A program made the position numbers and the translations under genes. From contig NZ_JAVDYB010000001.1 of the NCBI RefSeq assembly GCF_031458235.1, forward strand, positions 2,005,001 through 2,069,000: a stretch of DNA of 64,000 nucleotides. The letters run 5' to 3'. The stretch is from Catenuloplanes atrovinosus. Lineage in GTDB: Bacteria > Actinomycetota > Actinomycetes > Mycobacteriales > Micromonosporaceae. Shown one piece after another: positions 10,195 through 39,148 of this stretch (the first letter of the stretch is position 1; every line of letters begins with the position of its first letter). The notes under the pieces are model-generated. The model searched no databases. It worked only from the letters and a program-made list of their open reading frames with translations, and had not been told where the DNA came from.

Positions 10195-10222
10195 GTTAAC
10201 GGTGAGACACGTCACCGTTAAC
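10195..10222. terminator. Inverted repeat after xth (terminator or operator)
   Basis: GTTAACGGTGA and TCACCGTTAAC form a perfect 11-bp stem around a 6-base loop, starting 3 bp after the xth stop. There is no T-run, so it may be a factor-assisted terminator or a binding site for the operon that starts at 10315. Confidence 0.5.
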
Positions 10223-10314: not shown

Positions 10315-11934
10315 GTGACGGGGATACGGAACGTCAGTACGCCGCCGCCGACACACCTTCTGCACGCCGTGCTGGACGCTGCCGCCGACGCCGTGCTGCT
10401 CTGCGACGACCAGGGCGCGATCCTGCTCGCCAACGCCGCCGCCCGCCGGCTGATGCCCGGCCTGACCAGCATCGGCGAGCTCACCGACGACCCCGACTCG
10501 TTCGAGCGCGAGTGGCACGGCCGGCCGCTGCGGGGCCGCCGCCAGCCCGTCGACGAGGGCCACCACGTCTGGACCGTCCACGACTGCACGGACGAGCACG
10601 CGCGCGCCGCCTCGCTGGCGGCGGAGCGGGAGCGGACCGCGTTCCTGGCCGAGGCCAGCCGCCGGCTCTCCGCGTCGCTGCACCGCGGGCGCTGCGTGCG
10701 CACCACCGTGGAGCTGGCCGCCGCGCACCTGGCGGACGCGGCCGTGGTGGTGCTGCCGCCGTCCCGGCACCGCGTCGAGTGGGTGCGCGCGCTGACCGGC
10801 AGCCGCTTCGAGACCGGCGTGATGCGCGAGCGGGACGCGGACGGCGTGCCCGGCCTGTCCGAGGCGCTCGCCGGGTTCCCGCCGGTGCCCAGCCGCTGGC
10901 TGGACCCCGCGCAGGTGCCCGGCTCGCTGCTCCCGGCCGACTTCGGCGAGATCGGCGCGCTGCTGGTCACGCCGCTGCCCGGCAACGGCGTGCCGGCCGG
11001 CGCGCTGATCCTGGCTCGCCGGGCGCCGGGGCTGTTCTCCGAGATGGAGGAGCTGCAGGCACGCATCTTCGCGGCCCGGGCCGGCGCCGCGATATCGGCC
11101 GCCGTGCTCTATCAGGAGCAGGTGGAGACGACCGGCATCCTCCAGGCCGACCTGCTGCCGCCGGAGCTGCCGCGCATCGAGGGACTGGAGCTGGCCGGGG
11201 CGTACCGTCCGGCCAAGGACGCGGCCCGGATCGGCGGCGACTTCTACGACGCGTTCCCCCGCACGCCGTCGCTGGCGCCGGGCGCGGACCCGGCCGAGAC
11301 CATGGTGGTGCTCGGTGACGTGTGCGGCAAGGGCCCGAAGGCGGCCGTGCTGGCCGGCAAGGTGCGCCAGACGCTGCGCGCGCTGCGCCTGCTCGAGGGG
11401 CGCCCGGACCCGCTGCTGCGCGTGCTCAACCAGGCGCTGATCGACCCGCGCGACCGCAGCCGGTTCGTCACGCTGGCGCTGGCCTCGATGGTCCGCGACG
11501 GCGACGGCTGGCGCGTGACGGTCGCGTCCGGCGGCCACCCGCCACCGCTGATCCTGCGCGCGTCCGGCGGGGTCGAGCCGGTGCTGGCCAGGGGCACGCT
11601 GATCGGCGTGTCCAGCACGATCACGGTGGAGACCGCGGACGTGACGCTCGGGCCCGGCGACCTGATGCTGCTCTACAGCGACGGGCTGTTCGAGGCGCGC
11701 GGCGGCGCCGGCGGCCGGGAGGCGTACGGCGAGGACCGGCTCGCCGACTCGCTCGGCACCTGCCGGAACATGCCCGCCACCGCGGTGGTGGAGCGGCTGG
11801 AGCAGCTGGTGTCGGACTGGATCAACGGCGCCGGCCACGACGACATAGCGATGCTCGCGGTCCGGGTGCCGCCGCGGGTGCCCGACTACGGCAACGGGCA
11901 CCACCACGCGGTCAATCTGCGGCGGGCCCGATGA
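10315..11934 (+). CDS. PAS-GAF-SpoIIE (PPM/PP2C-type) serine phosphatase
   Basis: 539 residues. A PAS-like segment (AVLDAAADAVLLCDDQGAIL) is followed by a GAF-like region (roughly 120-290) and a SpoIIE phosphatase domain with metal-binding motifs IGGDFYDAF, LGDVCGKGPKAA, ASGGHPPPLIL, YSDGLFEARG and GHDDIAMLAV. Such enzymes dephosphorylate STAS-domain anti-sigma antagonists; a STAS gene is two genes downstream. GTG 10315 is chosen because GGAGGAG lies 6 bases before it; the upstream TTG has no such site. It overlaps the B12-binding gene by 4 bp (ATGA). The PAS/GAF sensors give it a second input besides the cobalamin protein. Confidence 0.92.
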   Translation: MTGIRNVSTPPPTHLLHAVLDAAADAVLLCDDQGAILLANAAARRLMPGLTSIGELTDDPDSFEREWHGRPLRGRRQPVDEGHHVWTVHDCTDEHARAASLAAERERTAFLAEASRRLSASLHRGRCVRTTVELAAAHLADAAVVVLPPSRHRVEWVRALTGSRFETGVMRERDADGVPGLSEALAGFPPVPSRWLDPAQVPGSLLPADFGEIGALLVTPLPGNGVPAGALILARRAPGLFSEMEELQARIFAARAGAAISAAVLYQEQVETTGILQADLLPPELPRIEGLELAGAYRPAKDAARIGGDFYDAFPRTPSLAPGADPAETMVVLGDVCGKGPKAAVLAGKVRQTLRALRLLEGRPDPLLRVLNQALIDPRDRSRFVTLALASMVRDGDGWRVTVASGGHPPPLILRASGGVEPVLARGTLIGVSSTITVETADVTLGPGDLMLLYSDGLFEARGGAGGREAYGEDRLADSLGTCRNMPATAVVERLEQLVSDWINGAGHDDIAMLAVRVPPRVPDYGNGHHHAVNLRRAR

Positions 11935-12998
11935 CCGCGACCACCTCCCTGCTTCCCGGCGTCGACGAGCAGTACCTGGAGCTGATCGGCGCCGGTGACG
12001 AGTGGGGCGCCACCGACCTGGTGCTCGCGCTCTGGGAGAACGGCGCGCACCCCGAGCGGCTGCTGCTCGACCTGATCGCGCCCGCGCAGGTGCGCGTCGG
12101 TGACCTCTGGGCGGCCAACGAGTGGTCCGTCGCGCGCGAGCACGCGGCCACCGCGACCAGCGAGCGCGCCATCGCCGCGCTGATCGCGCGCGCCGCGCCG
12201 CGGCCCACGCTCGGCCGGATCACGGTCGCCTGCACGGACGGCGAGTGGCACGCGCTGCCGCCCCGGATCGTCGGCGAGGTGCTGCGGCTGCGCGGCTGGC
12301 GGGTCGACTTCCTCGGTGCCAACGTGCCCGGCCCGCACCTCGTCACCCACCTGCACCAGACCGGCCCGGACGTGGTGGCGCTCAGCTGCGCGCTGCCGAC
12401 CCGGCTGCCCCGCGCGCACGCCACGCTCACCGCGTGCCAGGCGGTCGGCGTACCGGTGCTGGCCGGCGGCCGTGGCTTCGGCACCGACGGCCGGCACGCC
12501 CGCCTGCTCGGCGCGGACGGCTGGGCCGCCACCGCCACCGAGGCCGCGGACATCCTCGACTCCGGCTGGAACCCGCCGGCCCGCGCGCCGCACGACGACC
12601 TCGCCCACCTGGCCGACGAGGAGTACACGCAGCTCGTCCGCCAGCGCCACAGGATCATCGTGGGGCTGCTGGACCGGCTGCGCGAGGCCTACCCGCCGAT
12701 GCGCGGCTACGACCAGCGGCAGGCCGACGCGACCGCCGAGGACGTCACGCACATCGTCGACTTCCTGGCCGCCGCGCTGTACGTGGACGACGCCGCGGTC
12801 TTCACCGACTTCCTGGGCTGGACCGCCGGCGTGCTGGCCGCCCACGGCGTACCGGTCCAGGCGCTGACGATCTGCCTCGACCTGCTCGGTGCCGATCTCC
12901 GTGACTTTCCCCGGGCGGGGAATCTGTTGAAACTGGGTTTAGCGCAACTGGCGCCGGGTAGTGTGCCGGGCCAGGACTTCACGAGGCCGGAGCGATGA
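11931..12998 (+). CDS. B12-binding sensor protein with CarH-type Wx9EH photoreceptor signature
   Basis: 355 residues. Residues 1-90 form a helical bundle like the cap of methionine synthase/CarH; it contains Trp60, nine residues, then Glu70-His71, the exact Wx9EH signature of adenosylcobalamin photoreceptors. A B12-binding Rossmann domain follows: GEWHALP with His107 (candidate lower Co ligand; the usual trailing Gly is Pro), FLGANVP, ALSCALP and VLAGGRGFG. The C-terminal ~130 residues are helical and unassigned. No DNA-binding domain is present, unlike CarH/LitR. It is sandwiched with 4-bp overlaps between the phosphatase and STAS genes, so its output is probably protein-protein control of partner switching by light or cobalamin (inference). 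Confidence 0.88.
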   Translation: MTATTSLLPGVDEQYLELIGAGDEWGATDLVLALWENGAHPERLLLDLIAPAQVRVGDLWAANEWSVAREHAATATSERAIAALIARAAPRPTLGRITVACTDGEWHALPPRIVGEVLRLRGWRVDFLGANVPGPHLVTHLHQTGPDVVALSCALPTRLPRAHATLTACQAVGVPVLAGGRGFGTDGRHARLLGADGWAATATEAADILDSGWNPPARAPHDDLAHLADEEYTQLVRQRHRIIVGLLDRLREAYPPMRGYDQRQADATAEDVTHIVDFLAAALYVDDAAVFTDFLGWTAGVLAAHGVPVQALTICLDLLGADLRDFPRAGNLLKLGLAQLAPGSVPGQDFTRPER

Positions 12999-13336
12999 TC
13001 GACGATTCCCCCTTACGCATCGACGTCAGCCACCCCGACCCGGCCACGGCACTGCTCTCACTCGCCGGCGACCTCGACTTCGACACCGCCGAGGAGCTGG
13101 TGGACGAGGCCGAGCGGGCACTGATCACCGAGATCCGTACGCTCCGGCTCGACCTCTCCGGCCTCTACATCTGCGACTCGTCCGGACTCAGCGCGCTGCT
13201 CCACATCCACCACGACGCGCGCGAGGTCGGCACGGACTTCGAGATAACCGGCGTCACCGCCCAGCTCCGCCGCATCCTCGAGGTGACCGGCCTGGACGCG
13301 GTGCTCGGCACCACCCCGGCCGAGGCCCATTCCTAG
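12995..13336 (+). CDS. STAS-domain anti-sigma factor antagonist
   Basis: 113 residues, standard length for SpoIIAA/RsbV/BldG relatives. The phosphorylation motif is CDSSGLSALLHI, with Ser62 the likely target of an anti-sigma kinase and substrate of the upstream SpoIIE-type phosphatase. Dephosphorylated, it would bind the kinase and free a sigma factor. The ATG overlaps the stop of the B12-binding gene (ATGA at 12995). No RsbW-type kinase or sigma gene is in the window, so the partner is encoded elsewhere. Confidence 0.92.
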   Translation: MIDDSPLRIDVSHPDPATALLSLAGDLDFDTAEELVDEAERALITEIRTLRLDLSGLYICDSSGLSALLHIHHDAREVGTDFEITGVTAQLRRILEVTGLDAVLGTTPAEAHS

Positions 13337-13453: not shown

Positions 13454-14173
13454 GTGATCGGGGACGCGTTCGGGGAACTGCTCGGTGAGGTGTGGGCCGC
13501 GGGTGCGGTGGCCGGGCGGGTCGAGGAGGTCGTCGAGCGGGACGACGGGCTGATCAGCCGCGGGGACGCCGCGCGCTACCTCTCCGGGCCCGAGTCGTGG
13601 CCGGCCTGCGAGACGGCGGTGCTGGCACGGGCGCACGGCCGAATCCTGGACATCGGGTGCGGCGCCGGCCGCCACCTGGCCGCGCTGCGCGAGCGGGGAG
13701 CGGACGCGAGCGGCATCGACCCGTCCCCGGGCGCGGTGGCGGTGTGCCGGGCGCGCGGACTCGCCGCGGAGGTCGGCGACCTGGACCGGCTGCCCCCGGG
13801 CCCGTACGACACGCTGCTTCTGCTGGGCGGCAACCTGGCGCTGCTCGGATCGCCCGCGGACGCCGCACGGCGGCTCGCCGCGCTGGCCGCGGTGGCGGCG
13901 CCGGGCGCGCTGCTGCTGGGCTCGAACATCGACCCGCACCACACCGGCGACCCGCGCCACACCGGCTACCACGACCGGAACGTGCGGCACGGCCGGCCCG
14001 CCGGCCAACTGCGGCTGCGGGTCCGGCACGGCGAGACGGTGACGGAGTGGACCGATTACTGGCTGGCCGGCGTGTCCGAGCTGGAGAAGGTGGCGGCGGC
14101 GTCACCGTGGCGGCTGGAGAGCGTGGACGGGCACCCGTTCTACGCCGCGGTACTCACTCGCGCGTCGGCCTGA
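13454..14173 (+). CDS. Class I SAM-dependent methyltransferase
   Basis: 239 residues. SAM-binding motif I is ILDIGCGAGRHLAAL; the acidic end of strand 2 is GIDPSPGAV and motif III-like GDLDRLPPGPYDTLLLLGG follows. The C-terminal part (HDRNVRHGRPAGQLRLRVRHG) probably shapes the acceptor site; the substrate is unknown. The start is GTG 13454. The gene converges with the Hsp70-like gene and their ends overlap by 20 bp. Confidence 0.85.
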   Translation: MIGDAFGELLGEVWAAGAVAGRVEEVVERDDGLISRGDAARYLSGPESWPACETAVLARAHGRILDIGCGAGRHLAALRERGADASGIDPSPGAVAVCRARGLAAEVGDLDRLPPGPYDTLLLLGGNLALLGSPADAARRLAALAAVAAPGALLLGSNIDPHHTGDPRHTGYHDRNVRHGRPAGQLRLRVRHGETVTEWTDYWLAGVSELEKVAAASPWRLESVDGHPFYAAVLTRASA

Positions 14174-15407
14174 ACGCGTTGCGCACCGCGCCGAACCAGC
14201 GGCGCTGCAGGTGGCGGAGCCGGGGCTGGGCGACCGGGACGCGGAAGCTGTCCGGCGCCTGGCCGGCGCGCGTGACGTGGCCGGACTCCGGCGTGATGGC
14301 GACGACCTGGGAGAGGTCGCCGGTCTCCTCGTTGCGGCTGAGCCGGTGGTAGGCCAGCGCGCCCACCGCGACCGGCAGCTCCGGCTGCTCCGGGACGGAC
14401 GGCGTGGTGCCGAGCCGGGCGTAGAGGCGGGTGGAGACGAGCGGCACCCGGCTGGAGCCGCCGACCAGCATGAGCGAGTTGAGCAGGAACGACGACACCC
14501 CGGCGGCCTCGACGACGCGGCGGGTCTCCTCGACCGCGCGGGCGATGAGCGGCTCGGCGACGTACTCCAACTCCTCGCGCGTCAGGTGCAGCGGCCGGTC
14601 CCAGCCGGGCACCCGGACCGTCACGGCGGAGTTGCGGGACAGCGCCTCCTTGGCGCCGCGCACCTCGGTGCGGAAGTCCTGGCGGGCGCGCAGCTCCACG
14701 GCGGTGCGCGGCCGGAACAGGCGCTTCCACGTCTCCGGGTCGCGGCGGGCCAGGTGGCGTCGGAAGTGGTCGAGCAGCGCCAGGTCGATGTCGACGCCGC
14801 CGAGGTCGGCGAGCCCGCCGGTGCTGGCGACCTGCCAGCCGTTGATCTCGCGGCGGACCACGGTGACGTCGAGCGTGCCGCCGCCGAAGTCGAAGACCGC
14901 GATCGAGCCACCGAACGGTACGTGGTGGCCCTCCACCTGCGTGCAGTAGACCGCGGCCGCGACCGGCTCCTCCAGCAGCCGCACCTCGCCCATGCCGGCC
15001 CGGCGCGCCGCGTCGGTGAGCATCTCGCGGTGCTGGCGGCCCCAGCCGACCGGGCAGGTGAGCAGCGCGCCGTCCGGGTTGACGCCGGCCATCCGGGCCT
15101 CGTGCGCGACGCGGGACAGCACCGCGCTGAGCAGCAGCACGACCGGGACCTCGACGCCGCCGAGCGGGATCGAGCCCTCGCCGACGCGCCGCTTCGGGTG
15201 CGGTTCGTAGCGGACCGGGTCGCCGGCACCGAGCCGGGTCGCCTCCAGGCCGGTGACGATGCTGCCGTTCGCGTCCAGGTACACGCCGGAGTCCATCAGC
15301 GAGTACCCGTCGAACAGCAGCGTCCGCGGGGGCTCTCCGGGACGCCCGACGACCGCCACCGTGTGGGTGGTGCCCAGATCCACCGCCAGCTGCGACGGAC
15401 TCTCCAC
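14154..15407 (-). CDS. Hsp70-like ATPase lacking the substrate-binding domain
   Basis: 417 residues. Actin-fold nucleotide-binding motifs: phosphate 1 LAVDLGTTHTVAVVG, GEV-like RLLEEPVAAAVYC, phosphate 2 VFDFGGGTLDVTVV, adenosine LMLVGGSSRVPLV. The chain ends about 60 residues after the ATPase domain with a basic tail (RLRHLQRRWFGAVRNAF), so the beta-sandwich peptide-binding domain of DnaK is absent. Such short Hsp70 relatives occur widely in actinobacteria, with unknown clients. It has no adjacent DnaJ or GrpE gene. Confidence 0.87.
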   Translation of the reverse strand: MESPSQLAVDLGTTHTVAVVGRPGEPPRTLLFDGYSLMDSGVYLDANGSIVTGLEATRLGAGDPVRYEPHPKRRVGEGSIPLGGVEVPVVLLLSAVLSRVAHEARMAGVNPDGALLTCPVGWGRQHREMLTDAARRAGMGEVRLLEEPVAAAVYCTQVEGHHVPFGGSIAVFDFGGGTLDVTVVRREINGWQVASTGGLADLGGVDIDLALLDHFRRHLARRDPETWKRLFRPRTAVELRARQDFRTEVRGAKEALSRNSAVTVRVPGWDRPLHLTREELEYVAEPLIARAVEETRRVVEAAGVSSFLLNSLMLVGGSSRVPLVSTRLYARLGTTPSVPEQPELPVAVGALAYHRLSRNEETGDLSQVVAITPESGHVTRAGQAPDSFRVPVAQPRLRHLQRRWFGAVRNAFRPTRE

Positions 15408-36334: not shown

Positions 36335-36480
36335 TTGACGTGCACCGCGAGGGTAGGCGAGCATGGCCGTCGAGCGGATGCGGAGGAAACCCGGTGCGAG
36401 TCCGGGACGGTCCCGCCACTGTGACCGCGCGGCATCGCCGCCCGGGAGTCAGGTCACTCCGGCCGCTCGCACCGACCACC
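36335..36480 (+). promoter_or_regulatory. Cobalamin riboswitch
   Basis: The core reads GGAGGAAACCCGGTGCGAG, TCCGGGACGGTCCC, then the B12 box GCCACTGTGA (36415-36424) and GGGAGTCAGGTCACTCCGGCC-type P7/P8 elements, in the correct order and spacing for the AdoCbl/cobalamin aptamer. A hairpin (GCGGGCGTGGACACCCGC, 36485-36502) lies between the aptamer and the ribosome site GGAAGGGA, suggesting translational control of the downstream operon. Outer boundaries are approximate. Confidence 0.93.
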
Positions 36481-38545: not shown

Positions 38546-39148
38546 ATGCCACAGGGGAAGGTCGAGAACGTACCGGACGACGGCCTGACCACGCGGCAGC
38601 GCCGCCGGCAGCCGGTGCTCGCCGTGCACACCGGGCCGGGCAAGGGCAAATCCACGGCCGCGTTCGGCATGGCGCTGCGCGCCTGGTCGGCCGGGTGGCC
38701 GATCGTGGTGTTCCAGTTCGTGAAGAGCCCGAAGTGGAAGGTCGGCGAGGAGACCGCGCTCCGCGCGCTCGGCCAGGTGCCCGGCGGCGCGCCGGTGACC
38801 TGGCACAAGATGGGGGAGGGCTGGTCCTGGATCCAGCGCCCCGGCACCGAGCGGGACCACGCGGCCGAGGCGGCGCAGGGCTGGGAGCAGATCAAGCGGG
38901 ACCTGGCCGCGGAGGCGTACCGCTTCTACGTGCTGGACGAGTTCACGTACCCGATGAAATGGGGCTGGGTGGACGTGGACGACGTGGTGGCCACGCTGCG
39001 CGACCGGCCCGGCAGCCAGCACGTGGTGATCACCGGCCGGGACGCGCACCCCGCGCTGCTCGGCGCCGCCGATCTGGTCACCGAGATGACCAAGGTCAAG
39101 CACCCGATGGACGCGGGCCGCAAGGGCCAGCAGGGCATCGAATGGTGA
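38546..39148 (+). CDS. cobO: Cob(I)yrinic acid a,c-diamide adenosyltransferase
   Basis: 200 residues, full length. The P-loop is HTGPGKGKSTAAFGMALRA, followed by VVFQFVKSPKW, HKMGEGWSW, YVLDEFTYPMKWGWVD and VVITGRDAHPALL, the standard CobO/BtuR motif series. It transfers the adenosyl group of ATP to Co(I) corrinoids. It starts one base after the chelatase stop and overlaps cobB by 7 bp, so the genes are cotranscribed and probably coupled. Confidence 0.97.
   Translation: MPQGKVENVPDDGLTTRQRRRQPVLAVHTGPGKGKSTAAFGMALRAWSAGWPIVVFQFVKSPKWKVGEETALRALGQVPGGAPVTWHKMGEGWSWIQRPGTERDHAAEAAQGWEQIKRDLAAEAYRFYVLDEFTYPMKWGWVDVDDVVATLRDRPGSQHVVITGRDAHPALLGAADLVTEMTKVKHPMDAGRKGQQGIEW

Follow-up and report, generated by a model that had tools for sequence, protein, structure and literature searches.

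A predicted photocobilin beside a SpoIIE-type phosphatase in Catenuloplanes atrovinosus and the conservation of this gene pairing in an actinobacterial class

What does a cobalamin-binding light sensor act on when it carries no DNA-binding domain and its gene is enclosed between those of a phosphatase and an anti-sigma-factor antagonist? The question is raised by a three-gene operon of Catenuloplanes atrovinosus, located in a stretch of 64,000 nucleotides (here called the window; NZ_JAVDYB010000001.1, positions 2,005,001 to 2,069,000) of a genome that forms a single 8.9-Mb contig (assembly GCF_031458235.1). As described in an initial annotation of the window, plus-strand genes for a PAS-GAF-SpoIIE phosphatase, a B12-binding protein and a STAS protein occupy 10315-13336, with an ATGA overlap at both junctions (Table 1). 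Our comparative analysis identifies the B12-binding protein, from its sequence and model, as a photocobilin with a site for adenosylcobalamin (AdoCbl) and a second chromophore site for biliverdin (BV), and the conservation of neighbouring genes favours the phosphatase over the STAS protein as its constant partner.

The B12-binding protein and its two chromophore sites

From the motifs W60-x9-E70-H71 and E105-W-H107, both of which are present at these positions, the initial annotation had proposed a light-sensing AdoCbl protein of the CarH/LitR kind without a DNA-binding domain. Pfam lists B12-binding_2 (E 1.8e-15) and B12-binding (8.5e-17) in the 355-residue protein and no DNA-binding domain up to an E-value of 1. 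The photoreceptor type was well chosen, but the protein is not merely CarH-like: its C-terminal third, which had been missed, aligns with the BV domain of the photocobilin SasPcob from Saccharothrix syringae (50 of 124 residues identical from residue 215 onward), as in a full photocobilin with a BV site. In a sequence search of the Protein Data Bank the SasPcob entries 8J2X and 8J2W ranked first (residues 11/12-340, E 7.6e-93 and 8.8e-93), AbPcob came next (6.1e-49) and CarH followed far behind (1.7e-7 and weaker). Identity to SasPcob extends to 169 of 328 aligned residues, and all seven of its chromophore residues that were checked, reported as W61, E71, H72, H108, H137, D270 and W296 (PMC10979010), are conserved in the alignment (Table 1). 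Aligned with 8J2W and 8J2X across some 331 columns, the AlphaFold model (mean pLDDT 89.9) gives a TM-score of 0.85-0.86 (query) or 0.91 (target). The two proteins have in common the full-length fold and the seven residues, although SasPcob (8J2W in the dark, 8J2X in the light; PMC10979010) comes from a different organism and the Catenuloplanes protein is known here from sequence and a model; the closest named relative found belongs to Catenuloplanes japonicus (86% for the photocobilin). Judged from these residues, AdoCbl light sensing is very likely and red-light input via biliverdin plausible, and W60, E70 and H71 would by homology face the upper ligand.

That the protein is an ordinary transcription regulator of the CarH/LitR type is hardly credible. 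CarH and LitR do have the same AdoCbl cage (W-x9-EH) and lower histidine, and the CarH model gives a weak score of 42.7 bits, but its cut-off is 400 bits; CarH and LitR carry a DNA-binding domain of the MerR type and lack a bilin domain, whereas the Catenuloplanes protein is the reverse, with no helix-turn-helix domain listed, and the genome encodes a separate MerR-B12 protein. A CarH-like regulator was accordingly rejected on architecture. The photoreceptor module is also common to AbDPcob, a photocobilin-diguanylate cyclase fusion (8J2Y being its photocobilin part) whose enzyme is controlled by the light state (PMC10979010); there the output is fused and the bilin aspartate replaced by histidine, whereas the Catenuloplanes photocobilin stands alone and has the aspartate. 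AbPcob, with histidine at this position, is reported to bind biliverdin poorly (PMC10979010), and our alignment agrees on the replacement.

Among 135 homologues, some species being counted twice and one split gene (L077, spread over two frames) being excluded, W60, E70, H71 and H107 are conserved in all, W297 in 134, D271 in 122 and H136 in 115. The 13 losses of D271 comprise ten in two low-scoring paralogue groups, L074, and the unpaired L132 and L136. The ten paralogues lacking D271 are paired with a phosphatase (one group with L148 and L164-L166, the other with L127, L128, L134, L154, L168 and L169), and L170, a member of the second group, retains the residue. Both chromophores can be made in C. 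atrovinosus itself, since its genome has one heme oxygenase gene and CobO.

Alternatively, the photocobilin might sense AdoCbl supply or damage, light sensitivity being a by-product of the cofactor. AdoCbl binding alone changes AbDPcob activity (PMC10979010), and a riboswitch-controlled cobalamin operon, proposed in the initial annotation as a second input, lies 23 kb away; its riboswitch and AdoCbl genes were confirmed. We consider this explanation unlikely nonetheless, as nothing specific was seen to link the cobalamin operon to that of the photocobilin and as the bilin-site aspartate, whose known use is a wider wavelength range, is so widely kept.

Conservation of the neighbouring genes

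Relatives were first sought by a single scan of named genomes, which gave 74 loci; these are related and hence not independent. The phosphatase gene lies upstream of the photocobilin gene in all 74, with 39 overlaps of 4 bases and 12 of 1 base, counts that are approximate because gene starts were set by a fixed rule, which in five cases chose a codon that is not a start codon. A gene picked at random from this genome would be expected to have a SpoIIE neighbour in about 0.55% of cases (22 SpoIIE matches, about 8000 genes assumed). In wider searches, matches came from 62 of 396 genomes in the phylum, often across the B12 part only, and from 104 of 200 genomes in the family. From these a survey of 60 stretches was assembled, comprising the full-length phylum matches (11 of the same class beside the own genome, 14 from outside it) and 35 hand-picked family loci; it was scored by profile search, some species also occur in the 74-locus set, and the contigs of some of the 14 outside-class photocobilins are short. 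The phosphatase was adjacent to 44 of the 46 same-class survey genes. It was likewise adjacent at all of the 30 best-scoring SasPcob-relative loci in the order (about 1.5 kb on each side; 27 from one genus, g2), and the three best relatives of SasPcob found (L224-L226, 58-65% identical) also lie behind a SpoIIE gene.

Such a neighbourhood could persist without functional contact, the genes travelling together by descent only. An upstream exonuclease gene is indeed conserved at 46 of 46 same-family loci of the 74-locus set, so that synteny within the family could be mere descent and by itself proves little there. At its 28 loci of other families, as sorted by organism name, the exonuclease gene is absent throughout (0/28) and the phosphatase adjacent throughout (28/28); the pair thus outlives its neighbourhood. 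Furthermore, four genomes have two diverged pairs, each photocobilin beside its own phosphatase, with 53-68% difference between the photocobilins and 53-64% between the phosphatases of a genome. Against this evidence, descent alone is a very improbable explanation.

Phylogenetic attempts added little. Monophyly of the photocobilin-linked phosphatases could not be upheld, since the best split, which gathers all 118 of them together with 2 of the 29 others, has a support of only 0.279; one of these two adjoins a split photocobilin gene, and one paralogue group was recovered in the phosphatase tree with the same low support. The Mantel correlation of photocobilin and phosphatase distances (r 0.90) was given no weight, since common descent can produce it by itself. 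In Microbispora, tandem photocobilin genes between one SpoIIE and a STAS gene were observed (L049, 5959-8168; L073, 5959-8173); both keep the checked sites, and a heterodimer is possible.

STAS genes, in turn, are frequent neighbours and not constant ones. Against an expectation of 0.037 STAS genes per 10 kb, they were found within 5 kb of 29 of 46 same-class and 0 of 14 outside-class survey genes and at 24 of the 28 loci from other families, and they lie downstream in 25 of the 74 loci by single-sequence search. At 44 of 45 same-family loci of the 74-locus set (L077 left out, three ending within 500 bases downstream) there is none within 5 kb, although the phosphatase is always there, which weakens the STAS protein as a constant partner. 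The photocobilin might still target the STAS protein (or kinase) instead of the phosphatase and sequester the antagonist in one light state: the two genes overlap by 4 bases in the present operon, and a STAS gene is directly downstream of 16 of 46 same-class survey genes and beside 28 of the 30 best-scoring SasPcob relatives (26 of 27 in g2). The absence within the family makes this quite unlikely, as does the position of survey STAS genes, which often lie on the opposite strand beyond the phosphatase. The initial annotation had named the phosphatase or the STAS protein as partner and suggested a genome search for the three-gene order; conservation narrows the choice to the phosphatase, upstream at every locus of the first set, and the STAS gene completes the order in only part of the loci.

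Kinase genes of the HATPase_c_2 type occur near 7 of 46 same-class and 1 of 14 outside-class survey genes. Near photocobilin pairs, MEDS-HATPase_c_2 proteins (L118, 8750-10150; L160, 6067-7860) are possible partner kinases. At loci without a STAS gene, the shared neighbours reflected only family-wide synteny, in an uncounted list that includes out-of-frame reading frames.

A possible route from light to a sigma factor

The phosphatase matches SpoIIE (2.8e-43) and PAS_8 (6.4e-5) in Pfam, its GAF match falling below the cut-off. Its layout is PAS, helix, GAF-like domain, a 36-residue linker helix (residues 243-278) and a SpoIIE/PPM domain (about 290-518); the AlphaFold model has two alpha/beta domains and a helix (mean pLDDT 84.9), in an arrangement left unsure by a pTM of 0.54. 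Across an alignment of 21 sequences that contains its own, G307-Y311 (GGDFY), G334-V336 (GDV) and D456-G457 are invariant and D509-D510 nearly so. In having a SpoIIE/PPM domain, catalytic motifs included, that follows a sensor and a helical linker, the protein agrees with the RsbU/RsbP type of partner-switching phosphatase. The STAS protein exceeds the TIGR00377 cut-off only just (53.8 versus 53.45 bits); D61 and S62 of its DSSG motif (S62 codon 13178-13180) show no variation in an alignment of 13 sequences that contains its own. S62 is likely the phospho-acceptor, this serine being the phosphorylated one in SpoIIAA/RsbV, and the protein has the STAS domain and candidate serine of an anti-sigma-factor antagonist.

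With these components, we regard it as rather probable that the photocobilin acts on the phosphatase in the manner of RsbQ, light altering STAS phosphorylation and freeing a sigma factor. AdoCbl would be held between the helical bundle and the Rossmann domain, with biliverdin probably in the adjoining globin-like domain. Either green light acting directly or red light acting via the bilin would break the Co-C bond and change the oligomeric state. The photocobilin would then contact the PAS-GAF-SpoIIE phosphatase, as RsbQ does RsbP or RsbT does RsbU, and alter the linker helix that sets phosphatase dimerisation. The changed activity would shift S62 phosphorylation, upon which the STAS protein may bind or release an RsbW-type kinase encoded elsewhere, and the sigma factor would be freed or held. 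The light state is expected to turn the phosphatase on, the sign being a guess; like the contact, the kinase and the sigma factor, it is inferred.

Several steps have precedents in the literature. AdoCbl and BV binding and light-driven monomerisation are reported for relatives, SasPcob becoming monomeric in the light, and free photocobilins, SasPcob included, affect a diguanylate cyclase in trans, the direction of the effect depending on the bilin (PMC10979010). RsbT turns on RsbU as the linker forms a coiled coil and the phosphatase domains dimerise; RsbQ is called analogous for the PAS phosphatase RsbP, from models and earlier genetics, and the same linker toolkit is proposed for diguanylate cyclases (PMC12143880). 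Photoglobins have been placed close to phycobiliproteins in an analysis that takes the RsbR globin as outgroup (PMC10151467). Because of these three sources taken together, a phosphatase-binding photocobilin is the simplest reading. The RsbP-RsbQ and RsbU-RsbT systems of Bacillus subtilis likewise combine a sensor-linker-PPM phosphatase, a separately encoded controlling partner and a STAS substrate (PMC12143880). There, however, the partner is an alpha/beta hydrolase or RsbT, and the linker mechanism of RsbP-RsbQ is itself a prediction (PMC12143880). The partner adjacent here is a photocobilin and not an RsbQ alpha/beta hydrolase, so the operon does not belong to RsbPQ and the likeness would be in working only.

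A number of observations weigh against control of the phosphatase by light, beginning with the scarcity of STAS genes in the family. Two of the 46 same-class photocobilins (L142, L167) have no phosphatase, and none of the 14 from outside the class adjoins one. No single frame with both a photocobilin and a SpoIIE match was present in the surveyed lists of open reading frames, and therefore no fusion backs the contact. Five neighbouring genes of the operon that were tested include neither a kinase nor a sigma factor, and the nearest HATPase_c_2 match, a weak one, is about 7 kb downstream. As to the bilin, its aspartate is lost in whole paralogue clades, so it is perhaps not bound everywhere, and the 31 photocobilin genomes of g2 gave a clear heme oxygenase (PF01126) in 4, a weak one in 4 and none in 23, the weak matches (E 1e-4 to 3e-7) passing the Pfam cut-off but being omitted from the family-wide counts given below. 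D271 is kept at all 13 g2 loci that could be matched to genomes; among these genomes, heme oxygenase has no match in 10, a weak match in 2 and a clear match in 1. This combination may reflect another bilin source or another ligand. DUF2470, considered as a stand-in for heme oxygenase in g2, gave no answer, since 14 of 27 genomes matched it but only weakly (E 1e-8 to 4e-4). Nor is heme oxygenase strongly associated with photocobilins in the family: clear matches occur in 69 of the 104 genomes that have a photocobilin and in 56 of the 96 that lack one.

Genomic setting and biological meaning

Upstream of the operon lies a perfect inverted repeat (Table 1), which may be either an operator or a terminator hairpin. 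A genome-wide search tolerating up to 3 mismatches places it at a single site; it is partly conserved at a similar position in same-genus L137 and L138, and the same text search of L004, L139 and L140 did not find it. The riboswitch precedes Mg-chelatase-like, CobO adenosyltransferase and CobB genes. A gene for an Hsp70/MreB-like ATPase (14154-15407, minus strand) faces the operon. The separate MerR-B12 protein, LitR/CarH-like, is encoded elsewhere in the same genome (L002, 757-2022), possibly giving the cell two B12 light routes. The outside-class photocobilin genes without an adjacent SpoIIE gene are those of L120-L126, L129-L133, L135 and L136.

Table 1. Positions in the window of the operon, its predicted sites and related features
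Feature	Position	Strand	Basis or remark
Perfect 11-bp inverted repeat GTTAACGGTGA-N6-TCACCGTTAAC	10195..10222	.	between upstream exonuclease gene and operon
Phosphatase gene	10315..11934	+	539 aa; GTG start after GGAGGAG
Predicted photocobilin gene	11931..12998	+	355 aa
Predicted four-helix bundle, adenosyl-site cap	11967..12182	+	B12-binding_2, residues 13-84 (Pfam)
W60	12108-12110	+	aligns with SasPcob W61
E70	12138-12140	+	aligns with SasPcob E71
H71	12141-12143	+	aligns with SasPcob H72
Predicted Rossmann B12-binding domain	12216..12545	+	B12-binding, residues 96-205 (Pfam)
H107, predicted lower cobalt ligand	12249-12251	+	aligns with SasPcob H108
H136	12336-12338	+	aligns with SasPcob H137
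Predicted globin-like bilin-binding domain, residues ~222-345	12594..12965	+	alignment with SasPcob BV domain; all-helical in model
D271	12741-12743	+	aligns with SasPcob D270
W297	12819-12821	+	aligns with SasPcob W296
STAS anti-sigma-factor antagonist gene	12995..13336	+	113 aa; STAS_2 7.7e-19 (Pfam), TIGR00377
Cobalamin riboswitch	36386..36457	+	Rfam RF00174, 36 bits, gathering 31.5; context, outside operon
CobO, ATP:corrinoid adenosyltransferase, adenosyl ligand source	38546..39148	+	PF02572 3.1e-59; context, outside operon

Photocobilins were described in 2024, and the function of standalone members is called 'less clear' in PMC10979010, where STAS, SpoIIE and PP2C proteins are already listed, in one sentence, as predicted SasPcob partners. 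With the partner link suggested there, the operon is less novel than the initial annotation held. Among the papers found, only PMC10979010 was seen to join photocobilins with SpoIIE/STAS, and PMC11796333 mentions neither. What the present analysis adds is the class-wide constant phosphatase, the control for descent, the duplicate pairs, the pattern of bilin-residue loss and the RsbQ-like model. The photoglobin paper of Schneider from 2022, which we know only as a reference, may describe this neighbourhood already.

For the actinobacterial class as a whole, the chances seem evenly poised that the photocobilin is the dedicated partner of one PAS/GAF-SpoIIE phosphatase lineage, corresponding to RsbQ but operated by light and opening partner switching to a green/red input, and that duplicates with the AdoCbl cage but without the bilin aspartate see green light or AdoCbl only. 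The class-wide pairing names the phosphatase as the first enzyme to test and gives a simple assay; if the reading is true, the pair would be a natural green/red switch for a phosphatase. Kept across many actinobacteria, the pairing suggests that genes for stress or development may be under light control; in that case light would reach the sigma factors for stress or development of soil actinobacteria along a path apart from both LitR/CarH and LOV proteins.

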